DNA of 64,000 bases from Candidatus Sulfopaludibacter sp. SbA3 (GTDB taxonomy: Bacteria > Acidobacteriota > Terriglobia > Bryobacterales > Bryobacteraceae): assembly GCA_945890485.1 (NCBI GenBank), contig CAMDCN010000002.1, positions 434,001 through 498,000 of the forward strand, written 5' to 3'. The position numbers and the translations under genes were made by a program. The notes beneath the pieces are model-generated. The model saw only the letters and a program-made list of their open reading frames with translations. It was not told the origin of the DNA and did not search any database. Below, one piece after another: positions 1-8,472 of this stretch (the stretch's first letter is position 1; each line of letters begins with the position of its first letter).

Positions 1-313
1 AGTACGCCATGTTGCGATACGAAAACGTGAACCGGTAAAGCGCCGCCTTGTCCATCGTCAGATGCAGCGAGTTCATCGGGTCGCCCCAATTGGCGCCGCT
101 CAGCCGCACCGCGTCCAGCCAGCGATTCTCCCCCGGCGTCAACGATCCCGCGAAATTCAAGAGGCGCGGCCCTTCGGCCAGATTGTCGACGCTTCGATAC
201 GTCTTCCAATCGCCCCGCGTCGAAGGCAGAAACCGGTAGCCCAAGTCCGTAGACACCTCCGGCGCCTGTCCGAACACCGCCATCGGAATCGCGAACCAAA
301 GTGCCCATCTCAT
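1..313 (-). CDS. Outer-membrane barrel protein of the cytochrome operon (N-terminal part, cut by window edge)
   Basis: About 104 residues are visible before the window ends. The product begins MRWALWFAIPMAVFGQA, a good signal peptide, followed by GYRFLPSTRGDWKTYRSVDN, which resembles the start of large beta-barrel proteins that accompany multihaem cytochromes in acidobacteria. The ATG overlaps the stop of the upstream decahaem gene in an ATGA, so the two are translationally coupled. By position it is the expected porin-like sheath of a porin-cytochrome conduit (MtrB/PioB role). The role is inferred from context and the N-terminus; the barrel strands themselves lie outside the window. Confidence 0.6.
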   Translation of the reverse strand, partial: MRWALWFAIPMAVFGQAPEVSTDLGYRFLPSTRGDWKTYRSVDNLAEGPRLLNFAGSLTPGENRWLDAVRLSGANWGDPMNSLHLTMDKAALYRFTFSYRNMAY

Positions 314-1200
314 CGCAAAAAGTCCCGATTCACGTGCGAACCATGAATCTTGGCGTGGCACGAAGTACAGTTCCGGTAGATCGGCAGCCGCAGGTCATGC
401 ATCCCGGTCGCTACCGAACCCAACGTCCCCGTCCGGTTTGAAGGCGCCGGCAAATTCGAGTGGCACTCGAGACAAAGGTTCATCACCTCCGCCCGGTTCA
501 ACATCCGCGGATTCGCCGACCCGTGCGCCTCGTGGCAACTCCCGCAACCCTCCAGCCGCATCGGCGCATGTTCAAACGCAAACGGCCCCCGCTTATCCGC
601 ATGGCAGTTTAAGCAGCCCGGCTCGTTGTTCCGCGTCCGCGCCGTCCCGCGCAGCCCCGCATTCTGCAACGAGCCATGCGGATTGTGGCAGTCGACGCAG
701 CCAACCGTTCCCTGCGTAATCCGATGCGCATGCGGCCGCAAGAACTGCGAGACCACATCGGAATGGCACGACGAGCACGTCGAAGCCGCCTTCGGCTTGG
801 CATGATGCACCGAGTGGCAATTCACGCACGACACCTGCCCCGCACTATGCGACCCGTGTACCCGCCCCGCATGCGTCGCCTGATTCTTGTGGCACGTCAG
901 GCAGGAAGCGTCCACCTCTTTCGCCGGCGCTTTGGCATGGTTTAAGATGAACTTCGCCTCCGCCGCCTCCCCATGCTTCAACCCCGCCCCATGGCAAGAC
1001 TCGCACGAGTAGTCCTTCCAACCCCGGCCAGTGTCCTTCTCAATTCCGCCGTGCCGCGTCTTTAGAAAGGCCTTGCCCAAATCTTCATGACAAGCCAGAC
1101 ACGCCTCCGTGCCCACAAAGCCCGCCGCTTCCCGATCTTTCTTGCCGGGTGCCGCGGCGGCCAGCGAAGCGAACAGCAAAAATGCAAACAGAAAGCGCAT
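310..1200 (-). CDS. DmsE-type decahaem c-type cytochrome (periplasmic)
   Basis: The 296-residue product has a signal peptide (MRFLFAFLLFASLAAAA) and ten CXXCH haem sites: CLACH, CESCH, CLTCH, CVNCH, CSSCH, CVDCH, CLNCH, CGSCH, CLECH and CTSCH. Ten haems in about 300 residues fit the DmsE/MtrA family, which carries electrons through an outer-membrane barrel. I chose the ATG at 1200 because AAGGG lies 9 bases upstream; a TTG at 1209 and an ATG at 1206 are also possible. The gene follows the OmcA/MtrC-like gene after 12 bases and overlaps the barrel gene by 4 bases. Family assignment is strong; the electron partner is inferred. Confidence 0.9.
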   Translation of the reverse strand: MRFLFAFLLFASLAAAAPGKKDREAAGFVGTEACLACHEDLGKAFLKTRHGGIEKDTGRGWKDYSCESCHGAGLKHGEAAEAKFILNHAKAPAKEVDASCLTCHKNQATHAGRVHGSHSAGQVSCVNCHSVHHAKPKAASTCSSCHSDVVSQFLRPHAHRITQGTVGCVDCHNPHGSLQNAGLRGTARTRNNEPGCLNCHADKRGPFAFEHAPMRLEGCGSCHEAHGSANPRMLNRAEVMNLCLECHSNLPAPSNRTGTLGSVATGMHDLRLPIYRNCTSCHAKIHGSHVNRDFLR

Positions 1201-1212
1201 CAGCATCAACCC

Positions 1213-3234
1213 TTACTGCGCATGCGCTTTGGCGACCGAGAACGCCGCGTTCGGTCCGTGGCAAACGTTGCAGCTCTCGCCCAGCGGAGCCGTCGTCAAT
1301 TGCACATGGGCCGCCGCGTCCTTCGACGTGTGGCAGGAAAGGCAAGCCGCCCCGGCCGGTCCCGGATTCGTCAGCCAACCCCGCGGGTCCACCACATTCT
1401 GTAAATTCTCCGCAATCGGCAAGCGCTCCGTGTTATTGATGTGGCAAGCCGAACAGTTCCGCGCATCGGTCGGCAGAGCCGCCTTGCTGAAGTCGTTCGC
1501 CGAACCGCCGAATCCATAGATCACATAGGGCCGTCCCTGCGTCGTCCCGGTATGAATCCGATGGATCATCGTCGAGAAGTTCACGCTCTCCGCCGGCATC
1601 TGCGCCGGTGTCCGCCGCGCGGCATCCGTCAGCGTCGGGTTGTGGCACTCCACGCAATGCTCAATCTGATTCCGATTCCGCCCATGCGCCTCAAGGTCCG
1701 AATGGCACGTGTTGCACTTATTCAAACTCACAATCGCCCGCCGCGGCTCCACCGCCTTCCCCTCTACGCTCAAGTATGTCGTGACGTTCTTCAACGTGTC
1801 CCGCACCGTCACTGCCGCCCGGCCCGGACCTTCAAAGGTCACGTTCCGATACCCCTCCGCCGTAATCGAGAATGAACCCGTCGCCCCGGCCGGAATCGCC
1901 CTGGCGAAATGGTGAGTTGCCGTTCCACCAGGGTTGGGAGGATCGTTCCGGCCAGCTTCCGACCAATAAGCGGCATAGTCCGATGTCGGACCCGCCAGCA
2001 CGAAAGAAAGCGAGGTCAGCTCCAGCGGCGTCAGCGCATTGCCGTCGCTGTCCTTCAGCCGGTAGCTGATTGATGGCTGCTGCCCCGCGTTCGTATCCCG
2101 CACTTCCAGAATCTCAATCGAAATGCCCTTCAAATTGCGCGACTTCTCCGGCCGCGTATGCGCGCCGTCAATCGAGAGGTCCCATTCGCGCTGCCCCGAC
2201 GGACGGTGGCACTGCGCGCACCGCGAATCGTCAAGCTGCACCGGATGCCCCTTCCCCGCCGCGAAGTCAATATCGTCATGGCACGCCCCGCAAGCCGCTC
2301 GCGTCGGCTGATACATCGCCGTCGCCTGTGTCGCCGCGTTCGGCCCCTCCTGCACATGGCATGCCGCGCAGTTGCGATTGTTCGCAGGAAAGCCAACATG
2401 GGAGTAGTCGATCTCCTGCTGGCCGAAGCCAACTATCGAGTACTTCCCGCCCGCCTGAACGCTCGGCAGCTCTTTGCCCATATGAATCTTGTGCGTCATC
2501 ACGGTCATGTCCACCGTATTGCCCGTATCCGGATCCACCGTCTGCGGAGAATGGCACAGCACACACATCTCTACGCCCCGACGCGATCCGCCATGCGCGC
2601 TCACCTGCGTATGGCACCCATTGCAGCTCGCGGTCTTGATCACATCCCGCACCTTCGTCACTTCGCCCCCGGCGGGTACAAAGTTGAACGTGGCGCTCGC
2701 ATAGCTCACACCCAGTTCAAACTCGTTCAAATTCCGGCTGGAATAGACGCCAATCGTGTGCGTCGCTGTCCGGTCAAACCCGGCCGGCGCCTTCGTCCGA
2801 AAGGTGTACTTGTACTCCCCATCCGCCAGCTTCGTAAACGCCCCGCCCGTATCCGCCGAAGCCTGCGTCGCCGAAACGCCCGTTATTGGACTCCGCTGAA
2901 CCCGTGTGGTGTACGACGTATAGTGCTTCGCGTCCTGCGGAATCGTCGCCGCCACAAAACTCAGCCCCACCACGCCCGGCGTCACCTTACCTTCCCGGTC
3001 CAGCGGCACGTCCATCGGATCCGCAATCCGCACCGTCGCCGATATCGTCCCGTCCGCCGCAACCTCCGCCCCCTGCACCCGCAGCACCAGCCCTGGCCGC
3101 ACAAAGTTCAGCGTCCGCTCGTTGGCATAGAAAGCCTTCTCGGATGGCGTAAACCCAAAACGCCGAATGCCGCCGGCAATTCCAGCGGCGGCAACCAACG
3201 TTCCCAAAAACCAAATTGATGCTCTGCGGTTCAT
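1213..3234 (-). CDS. OmcA/MtrC-family decahaem c-type cytochrome
   Basis: The 673-residue product has an N-terminal hydrophobic segment (RASIWFLGTLVAAAGIAGG) and ten CXXCH motifs in two groups of five (CNGCH, CVLCH, CAACH, CGACH, CAQCH, then CNTCH, CVECH, CSACH, CLSCH, CNVCH). Each group follows a beta-rich domain without haem sites. This alternation is the OmcA/MtrC layout of cell-surface cytochromes that pass electrons to minerals or partners. The start at 3234 is preceded by GGGAG and sits 2 bases after the stop of the NapC/NirT-like gene; a longer 698-residue reading would overlap that gene. I see no clear lipobox, so surface anchoring is unproven. Confidence 0.88.
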   Translation of the reverse strand: MNRRASIWFLGTLVAAAGIAGGIRRFGFTPSEKAFYANERTLNFVRPGLVLRVQGAEVAADGTISATVRIADPMDVPLDREGKVTPGVVGLSFVAATIPQDAKHYTSYTTRVQRSPITGVSATQASADTGGAFTKLADGEYKYTFRTKAPAGFDRTATHTIGVYSSRNLNEFELGVSYASATFNFVPAGGEVTKVRDVIKTASCNGCHTQVSAHGGSRRGVEMCVLCHSPQTVDPDTGNTVDMTVMTHKIHMGKELPSVQAGGKYSIVGFGQQEIDYSHVGFPANNRNCAACHVQEGPNAATQATAMYQPTRAACGACHDDIDFAAGKGHPVQLDDSRCAQCHRPSGQREWDLSIDGAHTRPEKSRNLKGISIEILEVRDTNAGQQPSISYRLKDSDGNALTPLELTSLSFVLAGPTSDYAAYWSEAGRNDPPNPGGTATHHFARAIPAGATGSFSITAEGYRNVTFEGPGRAAVTVRDTLKNVTTYLSVEGKAVEPRRAIVSLNKCNTCHSDLEAHGRNRNQIEHCVECHNPTLTDAARRTPAQMPAESVNFSTMIHRIHTGTTQGRPYVIYGFGGSANDFSKAALPTDARNCSACHINNTERLPIAENLQNVVDPRGWLTNPGPAGAACLSCHTSKDAAAHVQLTTAPLGESCNVCHGPNAAFSVAKAHAQ

Positions 3235-3236
3235 CC

Positions 3237-4601
3237 TCAATCTCCCAACTCTTTCAACGCGGCCAAATTCTTCTCTTCGACGCCCAGCACCTTGTGACAG
3301 CTTTCGCAATCCTGCGTCATCGTCTTGCCGGACTTCGTCTTCAACTCCTCACCATGGCAGCGGAAGCACCCCGGCGAATCCGTGTGCCCCTTGTGCAGAG
3401 GGTAGTTGCCCCAGGTCAGCTTCATCTCGGGGTACACGTTCATTTGATACAGCGCCAACAACTGCGCCCCCGCCCGCTCAATCTCCGTCCTATGCAGCAC
3501 CAGCGCGTCCGGAGCCTGTTGTTTGTAGTAAGCCAACAACTCTGCGGGAATCTGTTGCGCCGCCACCTCCCGGCTGGGATAAGCCTTGCCCAACGTCGCC
3601 AGCGCCGCCTTCCGGAACTGCGGTATCTTCTGCGGCAGCGCGCCAGTAGTCATCTGCCGGTCGACTGCCCGCTCCGCCGTCTCAAACGCGTGCGCCGGCC
3701 GGTTGTGGCAATCAAGACAATCCATCTCGCGCTCGAAAGCAACCGTCCCCGGACCCGTATACTGCTCCACCTGCCCGCCCTTCTCAACCCGTACGCCTAC
3801 CATCGTCTTCCGCTGCGCATCCGCCGCCTGATAAACGATCCGCGTACCCCCGCCCATATGCGCCCCGTGAATCCGGCCCACCTTCATCATCAGCGCCGTA
3901 TCCAGCCGCTCTCCGGCATCATCGAACTTGCTCTGCCGCCACAGCTTGTCGCCGAAATCATGCTCCCGGTTGTGGCAGTTTTCGCAGGTTTCCGCCGAAG
4001 TCTTCAACGCGTGCGGCGGCGACGGAATCGGCCGGTTGTACTGATTCGTCAGCAGTAAATACAATTGCCGCGTCCCGTTCAGCTTCGCCTGAATCATCGC
4101 GCCGGCGCCTTCGCCCACATGGCAATCGACGCAGCGCACCTGTGCATGCGCCCCGCCAATATGCGCCGCAAACTCCGGACCCATCACGCCATGGCAAGCC
4201 GTCCCACAGAAGTTGGTCGTCTCCATGTACTTCACCGTGCGATAGGTCAGTGCTCCGCCCACCACCAGATTGAAGCCGGTCGCAATCGCGAGAAAGATCA
4301 ACAATCGTTGAATCTTCGGATTCGAAAGCTCAATCTTCTCGGGCAAATGCAGTTGGTGGTCCGGAGACTCTCGCTTCCGCTGCATGCTGATGCCAATCGG
4401 CACCAGAACCAGCCCGGCAAAAAACAACACCGGCAACGCGACAAACTGCAGAATCCCCAAATACCCCGACTGTTCGCTCGCTCCCGTCAGGAAGATCCAC
4501 AAGACAATCGACGACATCACCAACCACAGCCCCACCCGGCTGATCCAGTTGTCGGTCAGGTACAGGACCGGCAGGACCCAACGGCGCGTAAATGCTGCCA
4601 T
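3237..4601 (-). CDS. NapC/NirT-type inner-membrane multihaem cytochrome (quinol oxidation candidate)
   Basis: The 454-residue protein has three predicted membrane segments: two in the first 80 residues and one before the haem region (RLLIFLAIATGFNLVVGGAL). Five CXXCH sites follow (CVDCH, CENCH, CLDCH, CFRCH, CESCH), plus an unusual CGTACH (CX3CH) as the first haem-like site, where NapC/NirT proteins normally have CXXCH. NapC/NirT proteins and Geobacter ImcH take electrons from quinol to periplasmic cytochromes, which fits its place upstream of the two decahaem genes. It lies 10 bases after the monohaem cytochrome gene. Whether the CX3CH site binds haem cannot be told from sequence. Confidence 0.82.
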   Translation of the reverse strand: MAAFTRRWVLPVLYLTDNWISRVGLWLVMSSIVLWIFLTGASEQSGYLGILQFVALPVLFFAGLVLVPIGISMQRKRESPDHQLHLPEKIELSNPKIQRLLIFLAIATGFNLVVGGALTYRTVKYMETTNFCGTACHGVMGPEFAAHIGGAHAQVRCVDCHVGEGAGAMIQAKLNGTRQLYLLLTNQYNRPIPSPPHALKTSAETCENCHNREHDFGDKLWRQSKFDDAGERLDTALMMKVGRIHGAHMGGGTRIVYQAADAQRKTMVGVRVEKGGQVEQYTGPGTVAFEREMDCLDCHNRPAHAFETAERAVDRQMTTGALPQKIPQFRKAALATLGKAYPSREVAAQQIPAELLAYYKQQAPDALVLHRTEIERAGAQLLALYQMNVYPEMKLTWGNYPLHKGHTDSPGCFRCHGEELKTKSGKTMTQDCESCHKVLGVEEKNLAALKELGD

Positions 4602-4611
4602 CTTTACGGAC

Positions 4612-4926
4612 CTACTGTTTCAAGGTCCGCAGGAACGCCACCAGGTTGGTCGCATCCGCGTCTGCTATCGCAATCCCTTTCATCTTGCCGACGCCTTCGA
4701 CGGACTCTTTCTTCAACGCCGCGTCGGTTTTCGCCTGTACTTCCTTCGAACCTAAGTGCCGCATCTCCACTTTCATCATCTTAGCGATCGCGGCATTCGC
4801 CGCCCCGTCGCCGCCATGACAGCGCTTGCAGCTCTTGTCATAGATGGCTTTTCCGGCCGCAACATCCGCCGCAAACGCGCCGCAGGTGAAGAAAAGAAGA
4901 GTTAGTAAGGTCGGAGTCATTTTCAT
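4612..4926 (-). CDS. Small class I monohaem cytochrome c (periplasmic)
   Basis: The 104-residue precursor has a signal peptide (MKMTPTLLTLLFFTCGAFA) followed by one haem motif, CKRCH, with a downstream Met-rich segment (AKMMKVEM) that could supply the axial methionine. It ends with the helix NLVAFLRTLK typical of class I cytochromes. It is the first gene of the cytochrome operon and probably shuttles electrons between the membrane multihaem protein and the decahaem conduit. I chose the ATG at 4926 because GAGG lies 5 bases upstream; another ATG is 6 bases further in. Confidence 0.85.
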   Translation of the reverse strand: MKMTPTLLTLLFFTCGAFAADVAAGKAIYDKSCKRCHGGDGAANAAIAKMMKVEMRHLGSKEVQAKTDAALKKESVEGVGKMKGIAIADADATNLVAFLRTLKQ

Positions 4927-5050
4927 GGCTACCTCGGCAACTGCAATTGAAGCCCCATCGCTAAGCCTCTCCATTTCCAGGCATCCGATATCCGAATTGC
5001 GCCATATACCCCAGCTCGCTTGGGTCAAATAACCCTCGTCGTCCCCGGCC

Positions 5051-5064: not shown

Positions 5065-6564
5065 ATGACACTCCTCCACGGCGGAGCCCTCATCGACGGC
5101 TCCGGCTCTCCCGCCACCCCCAGCCAACTCCTCTTCGACGGCGACACCATACTCGAAATCGGCGCCTTCGACGCCCCTGCCGATGCCCTCCGCCTCGACT
5201 GCACTGGCCTCCTCATCGCCCCCGGCTTCATCGACCTCCATAGCCACTCCGATCTCCAGGTCCTCGAACGCCACCGCGCCAAAACCGACCAGGGCGTCAC
5301 CACCGAAGTCGTCGGCAACTGCGGCTTCTCCGCCTATCCCTGCGGTACCCACCGCCACGAAGTGCAGGAGTTCGCCAACGGCATCCTCTTCGGTTACGGC
5401 CGCGACTGGGCCTGGCCCAACGCTCAGCAGTACCTCGCCGACGCCACCGCCCAGGCCGATCTCGTCAACGTCCACTCCCTCGTCGGCCATGGCACCCTCC
5501 GCGTCGCCACCATGGGCCCCCGCCAAGGCCCGGCCACCCCTGCCGAACTCGACCGCATGGAGCAGAGCCTCGCTGAATGCCTCGTCGGAGGAGCCGCCGG
5601 ATTCTCCACCGGCCTCATGTACGCGCCCGGCTCCACCGCGCCCACCGAAGAGCTCGAAGCGCTCTGCCGCGTCACCGCCCGTGCCAATAAGGTACACGCC
5701 ACCCACATGCGCAGCTACGGTGACGACCTCCTGGCGTCAATCGACGAGCAGTTGGCGCTCGCCCGCTCTACCGGCTGCCGCCTCCAGATCTCCCACCTCC
5801 AAGCCGTCGGCCGACGCAACTGGACCAAGCAATCCCAAGCCCTCGAAAAGCTCGAAGCCGCCCGCGACGAAGGCATCGACGTCGCCTTTGATAGCTACCC
5901 CTACCTCGCCGGCAGCACCGTCCTCACCCAACTCCTCCCCGCCTGGGCCCTCGACGGCGGAACCCCGGCCCTCCTCGAACGCCTCGCCGACCCCGCACTC
6001 TGCAGCAAAATGAAAGCGACCATGATCGAGCAAACCCCTCAGCAATGGAGCGACATCTTCATCACGGCCGTGGGCTCACCCATCAGCGAACGCTTCGTCG
6101 GCCAGGACCTCGCCTCCATCGGCGAAACCCTCGGCGAACATCCCGTCGACGCCGCGCTCCATCTCCTCCGCGTCGAATCCGCCAACGTCAACATCCTCGC
6201 GTTCAACCAGTCCGACGACAACCTCCGCCACCTGCTGACCCACCCCCTCTGCACCGTCATCAGCGACGGCTTCTACGTCAAGGGCCGTCCCCATCCCCGC
6301 CTCTACGGCACCTTCCCCTTCCTCCTCGGCGAGATCGTTCGCGAACGCCGCTGGATGCCCATGGAACAAGCCATCCACAAGATCACCGCCCAACCCGCCG
6401 CCCGCTTCGCCATGCCCCGCCAGGGCCTCCTCGCCCCTGGCTACTACGCCGACATCACGGTCTTCGACCCCGCCGCCATCGCCGGCCGCGCGACATACGA
6501 AGCCCCGGAAACGGCCCCCGCCGGAATCATCCACTGCTTCCGGCGGGGGCGCCGCACCGTCTAG
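5065..6564 (+). CDS. N-acyl-D-amino-acid deacylase-type amidohydrolase
   Basis: The 499-residue product belongs to the amidohydrolase superfamily, D-aminoacylase group. It shows the metal-binding HxH in PGFIDLHSHSD, the conserved NCG (EVVGNCGFSAYP), histidines in THMRSYGDDL and SHLQAVGRRNW, the DSYPY segment, and the family signature HPRLYGTFPFLLG near the end. Such enzymes hydrolyse N-acyl-D-amino acids or related amides, probably in the cytoplasm since there is no signal peptide. The start at 5065 fits the family's usual N-terminus; an open frame upstream is not used. Its stop codon directly abuts that of the convergent flotillin-like gene. The exact substrate is not clear. Confidence 0.88.
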   Translation: MTLLHGGALIDGSGSPATPSQLLFDGDTILEIGAFDAPADALRLDCTGLLIAPGFIDLHSHSDLQVLERHRAKTDQGVTTEVVGNCGFSAYPCGTHRHEVQEFANGILFGYGRDWAWPNAQQYLADATAQADLVNVHSLVGHGTLRVATMGPRQGPATPAELDRMEQSLAECLVGGAAGFSTGLMYAPGSTAPTEELEALCRVTARANKVHATHMRSYGDDLLASIDEQLALARSTGCRLQISHLQAVGRRNWTKQSQALEKLEAARDEGIDVAFDSYPYLAGSTVLTQLLPAWALDGGTPALLERLADPALCSKMKATMIEQTPQQWSDIFITAVGSPISERFVGQDLASIGETLGEHPVDAALHLLRVESANVNILAFNQSDDNLRHLLTHPLCTVISDGFYVKGRPHPRLYGTFPFLLGEIVRERRWMPMEQAIHKITAQPAARFAMPRQGLLAPGYYADITVFDPAAIAGRATYEAPETAPAGIIHCFRRGRRTV

Positions 6565-8472
6565 CTACTTCCCCGGCGTCAGGTACTTCATCAGGACCGC
6601 CGCCAACCCATCCAGCGAGGCGCCGTTGCCCCCCGCCACCAAAATATTCGGCACAATCGGCATCCCGCTCTTGGCAATCGCGTCGATGCCATTCACAATC
6701 GCCGTCGCATTCGCGCCGAACGCCTTCACCTGCGCATCGTAAGCCTCAGCCTTCGCCAAGCCCACGGCCCGCACCTCAGCGCCCTTCGCCTTGCCGGTCT
6801 GTTCGATGTAGAACGCCTCGCCGTCGGCTTCCGCCTTCCGCGCGTTCGAGTTGTTCGTCTTGATCGTCACCCCGACCTTCGACTTCGCCAGCTCGGCCTG
6901 CATATCGGCCGTACCCCGAGCCTGCTCGGTCTCGATCCGCTGCTGCTGCGCCTGCTTCTGCTGTTCGAACGTCGCAATCTCCTGCTTGGCAATCTCCCGC
7001 TCCGTCAGCACCTTCACCAGATCTTGCGGCAGAATCACGTCCTGAATGTAGACCCCGCGGGTCTCCACAAAGTACGACGATAACTGCTCGCTAATCCGCG
7101 CAAACGCCTCCCGCTGCACCTGCTGCCGCGTCTCTACAAACCGCACCGCCGGCATCGACTGCAGCGTGTCCCGGAAGTGGTTCCCCACCGCCGCCTGCAG
7201 CACTTCATCTACAAGGTTGCGAATAGTCCCGACCGTCGAGATCACCCGCGGCGCCCGCGTATCCGGAATGTGAATCTGCACTTGCAAGTCCATCTTGAAC
7301 ACGAACCCTTCCGAACTCTTGGCCACAATCTGTTCGAGCTTCGCGTCCAAATGATGCGCCGAAGAAACCCGGTCCGCCCAGTTCAACGTCAGAATCGCCG
7401 TCGGCACCAGTTCCGCGTTATAGCAGTAGGGGTTGATGGGATATTTGCCCGTCCGCAGCGGCTCCTGCCAAATGCCGCGATGGCCCGGCCGAACCAGCGA
7501 CCCGAACTTGAACTCCGCTCCCGAAGTATCGGAAGGCGGCAAGCCCACATACGCTTTGATCACCGCGACCTCGCCCTGCTCCACCACCAGCATTGGCACC
7601 TTTTCGACGCGCACCAAAAACGGGTTCAGCAGATACGCGCCATACAGCAGCGGGTCATGCTGCAAGCCAATCCGGCCGCCGTTATCAAGAAACGCTTGGA
7701 AGTCCTGATAGTTGTTATGCAGCTCGTTCTTGTTGCTGAACAGCCGCTCAATCAACTCCGCGTCATGCGTATCGCCGCGCCGCTCCATCTCCGTAATGTC
7801 CTGAAACTGGCCCAACCGGCTCGCGATATCGCCCGAAGAAAGCGGATCACCCTCCAACGTCGAAACAATCCCAATCACGTCAGAATCCGAGTTCGAATTC
7901 TTCGCAATCCGGACCACTTCCAGGTCCGCCGGGCTCAACCCAAAGCTCATCGGCGTCAACTGCTGCCGCTGCAGCTCTTCCGATACCGGCCGTCCGAAAA
8001 CCCGGTCCCGCGTAATCACGAAGAACGCAATCGGATGCAGCGGCAGCGTCGTACCCGGCGCCAGCACCGGCCGCTGCACGCCTTTCTGCCCGCCTTCCTG
8101 GATGAACGTCTCCAACTCCGTGAACTGCCCAAAGCTCGGCTTGTACAACCCGCTCTTGGCGCCCGTTGGCAACGGCTGACCCACCTGCGCGATCACCACG
8201 CCAATCTGACCCGCCGGTACCTGCACCCACGGATACTTCTCGACGCCATACAGCGGCCACAGCTTGAACCGCAGCCCGGGCATCAACAACTCTGACTGAT
8301 ATCCCGCCTCGCCCTTGAAAGCGATCGGGTTATCGTCGTCCAATTTCTGCGCCGAAAACCGGCGCGTCACCAAACCCACCTCGGTGGGTCCAATCCGGTG
8401 CAGCGAGAGCAACGACACGACGGCCGCCGCACCCGCCGCTGCCAAAAGCAACAGCAAGAACGCAATGAACAT
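6565..8472 (-). CDS. Flotillin-like SPFH/band-7 membrane protein
   Basis: The 635-residue protein starts with a membrane anchor (MFIAFLLLLLAAAGAAAVV) followed by an SPFH/band-7 region that extends to about residue 480. Residues about 480-560 (REIAKQEIATFEQQKQAQQQ onward) look like a coiled coil, and the C-terminus is Ala/Gly-rich. This is the flotillin layout: oligomeric scaffolds of membrane microdomains. The ATG has a good Shine-Dalgarno sequence (TAGGAG, 5 bases). It is longer than typical bacterial flotillins (about 500 residues). No NfeD-type partner is adjacent. Its stop codon touches that of the amidohydrolase gene, with no terminator between them. Confidence 0.82.
   Translation of the reverse strand: MFIAFLLLLLAAAGAAAVVSLLSLHRIGPTEVGLVTRRFSAQKLDDDNPIAFKGEAGYQSELLMPGLRFKLWPLYGVEKYPWVQVPAGQIGVVIAQVGQPLPTGAKSGLYKPSFGQFTELETFIQEGGQKGVQRPVLAPGTTLPLHPIAFFVITRDRVFGRPVSEELQRQQLTPMSFGLSPADLEVVRIAKNSNSDSDVIGIVSTLEGDPLSSGDIASRLGQFQDITEMERRGDTHDAELIERLFSNKNELHNNYQDFQAFLDNGGRIGLQHDPLLYGAYLLNPFLVRVEKVPMLVVEQGEVAVIKAYVGLPPSDTSGAEFKFGSLVRPGHRGIWQEPLRTGKYPINPYCYNAELVPTAILTLNWADRVSSAHHLDAKLEQIVAKSSEGFVFKMDLQVQIHIPDTRAPRVISTVGTIRNLVDEVLQAAVGNHFRDTLQSMPAVRFVETRQQVQREAFARISEQLSSYFVETRGVYIQDVILPQDLVKVLTEREIAKQEIATFEQQKQAQQQRIETEQARGTADMQAELAKSKVGVTIKTNNSNARKAEADGEAFYIEQTGKAKGAEVRAVGLAKAEAYDAQVKAFGANATAIVNGIDAIAKSGMPIVPNILVAGGNGASLDGLAAVLMKYLTPGK

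Follow-up and report, generated by a model that had tools for sequence, protein, structure and literature searches.

A five-gene operon of a Bryobacterales acidobacterium that encodes mtrCAB together with a predicted ImcH-type quinol oxidase behind a sigma-54-like promoter element

The five genes and their products

The window (the whole stretch of 64,000 nucleotides analysed here, G000:C2:434001-498000, from a genome of 7.13 Mb in 35 contigs that has its closest named kin in the acidobacterial family Bryobacteraceae) begins with a run of intact genes on the minus strand, in the order cytc-imcH-mtrC-mtrA-mtrB from position 4926 to position 1 and further to the left (Table 1). The missing part of mtrB, the barrel gene with which the operon ends, was taken from L003, the same contig extending to the left of window base 1. 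The gaps between the first four genes are 10, 2 and 3 bases and mtrA and mtrB share an ATGA overlap at 313-310, in agreement with an earlier note on this DNA that had described five tightly spaced genes on one strand and whose count of 1 + 6 + 10 + 10 haem sites proves exact. Since the operon is flanked by a divergent gene on its 5' side (ATG at 5065) and by a convergent one on its 3' side, which encodes an NtrC-type regulator (L003:10991-12418), it consists of exactly five genes. Compared with three relatives, all five have dN/dS values of 0.07-0.18 and are therefore under purifying selection. Over L003:12100-19300, no sigma-70 promoter was found, and the two terminator-like sites present are fewer than in shuffled sequences.

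Table 1. Features of the operon and of its upstream region (window coordinates unless marked L003)
Feature	Position	Strand	Length	Evidence or remark
Secreted monohaem cytochrome c	4612..4926	-	104 aa	PF00034 38.6 bits; one CXXCH; N-terminal signal-like helix
Predicted ImcH-type inner-membrane hexahaem quinol oxidase	3237..4601	-	454 aa	5 CX2CH + 1 CX3CH
OmcA/MtrC-family decahaem cytochrome	1213..3234	-	673 aa	TIGR03507 473 bits (cut-off 209)
MtrA/DmsE-family periplasmic decahaem cytochrome	310..1209 (ATG at 1206)	-	299 aa	TIGR03508 222 bits (cut-off 192)
MtrB-type barrel gene	L003:12451-14313 (window -1549 to 313; 5' end 1..313)	-	620 aa	PF11854
Sigma-54 -24/-12 promoter-like element TGGGGCTTCAATTGCA	4942..4957	-		15 bases before the cytochrome c ATG
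Two tandem dyads: 5013-4998 TGGGGTATATGGCGCA; 5036-5021 AGGGTTATTTGACCCA	4998..5036	-	16 bp each	predicted activator sites

The profile of the MtrC-like protein matches the structures of MtrF, OmcA, UndA and MtrC (best 4.8e-51), its 20 cysteines, exactly that number, all lie in haem sites, and its structure model has a pLDDT of 64.5. The MtrA-type protein, with ten CXXCH motifs, matches the MtrA chain 6r2q_A over residues 32-292 (9e-34), that is over nearly its whole length, and its previous assignment as a DmsE-like decahaem protein holds. The product of the left-edge gene contains no cysteine and scores 24.5 bits with PF11854 (MtrB_PioB), just above the cut-off of 23, and 22.7 bits with TIGR03509, below the cut-off of that model; a search of its sequence against the PDB gave no useful match. 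Its fold was approached through the ortholog from L088 (same genus, 83% identical), modelled with 16 homologs in the alignment at a mean pLDDT of 78. The model has 27 listed strands, one of them perhaps split (about 26-27), and Foldseek returned MtrB (6r2q_B) first, with an E-value of 1.9e-13 and a TM score of 0.68, the other listed chains reaching at most 0.48. VIA-align against the same chain gave a Z score of 25.3 and an rmsd of 3.7 over 533 residues, the next Z score being 17.1. The barrel of about 26 strands that had been predicted for this gene is thus borne out by the model of its ortholog. Because the third and fourth genes belong to the OmcA/MtrC and MtrA/DmsE families, and with a fifth gene whose product is modelled as an MtrB-like barrel, the locus is, as judged from families and modelled fold, an mtrCAB locus.

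The membrane multihaem protein encoded by the second gene had been taken for a quinol oxidase of the NapC/NirT type. A NapC/NirT-like part is indeed present (PF03264, 31.8 bits, cut-off 24.1), but the similarity to NapC/NirT and NrfH does not extend beyond helix 3 and the first haems, TIGR02161 yields 18 bits versus a cut-off of 310, and a plain NapC/NirT or CymA identity was rejected because the protein has three helices and six haem sites versus a single helix and four haems. The helices are N-terminal (hydropathy peaks at 23-41, 53-71 and 97-115) and beside the membrane part lies a CX3CH (position 132) that is invariant across 12 homologs. Three N-terminal helices, a CX3CH by the membrane part and 5-9 CX2CH are the features by which Zhong and Shi (2018, PMC6295460) recognize ImcH, and the protein, set against Geobacter ImcH by these described features, is better read as a putative ImcH-type quinol oxidase. 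Only one such imcH-type gene was found in the genome. As for the monohaem cytochrome c, we propose that it is a periplasmic carrier; the idea that it replaces the tetrahaem protein of the Group 5 systems discussed below was tried and found unsupported, the local similarity being weak (E 0.015).

Promoter elements and distribution of the operon

The promoter-like element has counterparts in every one of the orthologous five-gene operons (10/10), where the pattern [TC]GG-N8-TTGC[AT] begins 27-32 bases ahead of the first start codon; its chance occurrence is 0.4% per 60 bases, and the ten operons, being related, are not independent. Upstream of it, a pair of dyads of the type TGGGgcATATgcCCCA lies about 40 bases away in the closest relatives, and such pairs, 21-23 bp apart, precede eight of the ten operons (p in shuffles <=0.0025), the remaining cases being L100, with one perfect dyad, and L094, with one clear and one weak dyad. 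The tandem site of the window is unique in its genome, even allowing 3 mismatches. Together with the presence of rpoN in the genome (411 bits), the -24/-12 element and the predicted activator sites suggest that the operon is sigma-54-dependent. A candidate activator is the NtrC-type regulator, which has receiver, sigma-54 activation and Fis-type domains and would bind the tandem dyads. In eight genomes (L003, L047, L048/L088, L049, L052, L089, L090 and L092) its gene faces the end of the operon in convergent orientation, and in six of these a PAS histidine kinase adjoins it; no such regulator gene was found near L087, L091, L094 and L100, where the flanking sequence is in part short. The kinase gene beside it in the genome of the window (L003:9237-11024, minus strand) encodes a C-terminal receiver domain as well.

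An OmcA/MtrC protein scores above the cut-off in 134 of 200 Bryobacterales genomes, and the outer part is thus common in the order; both the order and the genus include genomes with no strong MtrC match, and the trait is therefore dispensable. The order cytc-imcH-mtrC-mtrA-mtrB on one strand was found in ten acidobacterial genomes (the window, L047, L048/L088, L049, L054/L091, L087, L090, L092, L094 and L100, a slash marking the same genome fetched twice). The imcH of L092 reads as two overlapping frames, perhaps through a sequence error, and L089 and L052 show the last four genes only, at a contig end. A single branch of the ImcH tree (support 97) separates the ten operon rows from all others, and the arrangement requires one change versus 9.6 in shuffles. 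Other gene orders with ImcH near MtrCAB occur in L053, L069, L075, L077, L080, L085, L093, L095, L122, L133 and L140. ImcH is encoded in 13 of 32 regions with full MtrCAB, a proportion that is no survey rate as the regions were chosen for long contigs and near kin. A variant in L055 (G008, 5517-8150, minus strand) is a gene between mtrC and mtrA for an 877-aa protein made up of ImcH and four c7 triheme modules, with 18 haem sites in all; TIGR04257 (161.6 bits) matches in four stretches, which correspond to twelve c7-type haems. This fusion links ImcH to a periplasmic haem chain and to MtrCAB, and its sequence predicts a quinol oxidase equipped with a periplasmic wire of its own.

A Group-5-type tetrahaem protein was seen in many of the regions examined, and the tetrahaem genes after mtrB (L058:12983-14068 and the like) encode a PF00034 cytochrome c domain at the N-terminus. 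Tandem OmcA/MtrC genes were observed in several Bryobacterales (L050:5874-10357, L051:7854-12236, L073:7845-12352, L140:407-5209 and L071:6982-11599), in L050 and L051 with no mtrAB within the stretch examined; no mtrC duplication was seen in Group 5 by Baker et al. (2022, PMC8805035). Elsewhere in the genome of the window (G000:C3, L005:11425-14261, plus strand), a second decahaem DmsE gene accompanies a barrel gene with weak GSU2204 similarity and no adjacent OmcA/MtrC gene, and many Acidobacteriaceae (L127, L128, L138, L146 and others) have comparable pairs close to imcH. Two records named Acidimicrobiia (L099) and Nevskia soli (L120) carry ImcH/Mtr genes of acidobacterial type, and these names are probably wrong.

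A predicted outward conduit and its alternatives

We consider it likely, with a probability of about 80%, that this sigma-54-controlled operon encodes an outward conduit leading from ImcH, with or without cytochrome c as a go-between, through MtrA to MtrC and an acceptor outside the cell. In such a scheme, ImcH would oxidise (mena)quinol in the inner membrane and pass the electrons through its haems to the periplasm, from where the monohaem cytochrome c and/or the haem chain of MtrA itself would bring them to MtrA, lodged in MtrB, the outer-membrane barrel. The MtrC-like protein, a presumed surface reductase, would then hand them to an extracellular acceptor, e.g. Fe(III), Mn(IV) or humics. 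In the genus of the window, the histidine kinase and the NtrC-type regulator encoded beside the operon probably turn it on via the tandem dyads. The full path from quinol to the cell surface that the earlier note had drawn thus finds support in the protein families, the ImcH signature and the MtrB fold, its direction and the location of MtrC being the more conjectural parts. Two points favour outward flow: ImcH homologs are known from reducers only (PMC6295460), and Paludibaculum fermentans, a Bryobacterales species in culture, reduces Fe(III) (PMC8407742).

An inward conduit, in which an outside donor such as Fe(II) would feed a quinone through MtrC-MtrA-MtrB and the membrane cytochrome in the manner of Mto/Pio, appears improbable. 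Conduits of the MtrA/MtrB type have been proposed to run both ways, as in the Mto pathway (PMC6295460), and a small cytochrome c could carry electrons in either direction; however, the membrane protein is of the type seen in reducers only, an outer decahaem protein of MtrC type is present, and genes for iron oxidation or carbon fixation were not noticed beside the operon.

A further reading turns on where the MtrC-like protein resides. Shewanella MtrC carries a lipobox. In the window protein no lipobox was found, which leaves its anchoring uncertain, and most relatives lack one too; the N-terminus, moreover, has no clear cleavage site. These traits would suit a periplasmic or shed protein and an operon that makes no continuous wire to the surface. 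We nevertheless regard this as unlikely, given that the gene shares an operon with mtrAB in a conserved order, that the family is one of surface cytochromes, that in L088 and L052, both near relatives, a cysteine stands where a lipobox is plausible, and that the genome encodes GspD of type II secretion (384 bits), a candidate route for MtrC export. Of the earlier claim of an OmcA/MtrC-like decahaem protein on the outside, the family stands and the location is a surmise.

Least probable of all is a conduit that feeds a dedicated extracellular enzyme and not minerals, as DmsEF feeds the DMSO reductase DmsAB: NCBIfam does name the MtrA protein DmsE-family, but the TIGR03508 model spans MtrA and DmsE types alike, the outer position is taken by the OmcA/MtrC-type protein, and no molybdoenzyme or other terminal reductase, including the soluble one next door that would have spoken against a conduit, is encoded among the flanking genes read.

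In soils, Acidobacteria rank with the most common bacteria, and little is known of their role in iron cycling. The host is a soil- and water-type acidobacterium which, if the wire is complete, could respire solids such as iron oxides. The operon predicts ImcH-type quinol oxidation and names an inner-membrane partner that Baker et al. (2022) did not find for the MtrCAB of Bryobacterales; it also offers a testable promoter and two-component system, and its compact set of five genes makes a convenient package for study in a laboratory host. On balance, we favour the view that this Bryobacterales lineage possesses a self-contained module that places a quinol oxidase of Geobacter type and a conduit of Shewanella type under one sigma-54 promoter and an NtrC-type two-component system, and that closes the reported inner-membrane gap.

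Comparison with known systems

Acidobacterial genes of MtrA and MtrC type were noted in 2013 (PMC3669403), and MtrCAB has already been described in Acidobacteriia/Bryobacterales as Group 5 (Baker et al. 2022, PMC8805035). The presence of MtrCAB in an acidobacterium of this kind, which had been thought notable, is hence not so in itself (134/200 genomes); what deserves notice is that the operon also encodes a predicted quinol oxidase, and its probable sigma-54 control. Group 5 and the window share the bacterial order and the mtrCAB core; Group 5 is reported to encode a tetrahaem protein behind mtrB and to lack a quinone oxidoreductase in the vicinity, whereas the window operon has no tetrahaem protein and carries cytochrome c and ImcH in front. 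Six clusters from karst MAGs (2026, PMC13264449) combine a decahaem protein, a porin of 25-36 strands and an ImcH- or NapC/NirT-like protein and are in part prior art for the combination, the text being silent on which of them are acidobacterial, which contain MtrC, and on regulation. An incomplete literature search, and thus weak evidence, revealed neither an ImcH-type partner in an acidobacterial mtrCAB operon nor its sigma-54 promoter, and the combination of MtrCAB and an ImcH-type partner within a single sigma-54 operon is not clearly described so far.

On the inner side, the closest parallel is Geobacter ImcH (Levar 2014; PMC6295460), which is alike in its three helices, its CX3CH as first site and its NapC/NirT-like first part, and differs by having seven haem sites versus six in the window protein. 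The survey of 2018 (PMC6295460), in which similarity to Geobacter ImcH ranged from 31.5 to 49% among homologs, included 19 acidobacterial homologs and found mtrAB beside imcH in none, unlike the window, where imcH is encoded with mtrCAB. Sigma-54 is likewise linked to extracellular electron transfer genes in the RpoN regulon of Geobacter sulfurreducens (promoter consensus TTGGCACGGTTTTTGCT; PMC2725144), with cytochromes other than those of the window operon.

On the outer side, the window shares with Shewanella MtrCAB (6R2Q) the decahaem MtrA in an MtrB barrel, the OmcA/MtrC-family decahaem protein and the adjacent order mtrC-mtrA-mtrB. The window-type barrel is about 12% identical to Shewanella MtrB in the structural alignment and that of the window is cysteine-free, and the MtrC-like protein, unlike Shewanella MtrC, combines the lack of a lipobox with 20 cysteines that all serve haem sites. 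The quinol step falls to a distant CymA in Shewanella and, by prediction, to an ImcH-type protein of the same operon here, so that an inner part resembling that of Geobacter and an outer part resembling that of Shewanella look to be brought together in one five-gene operon.
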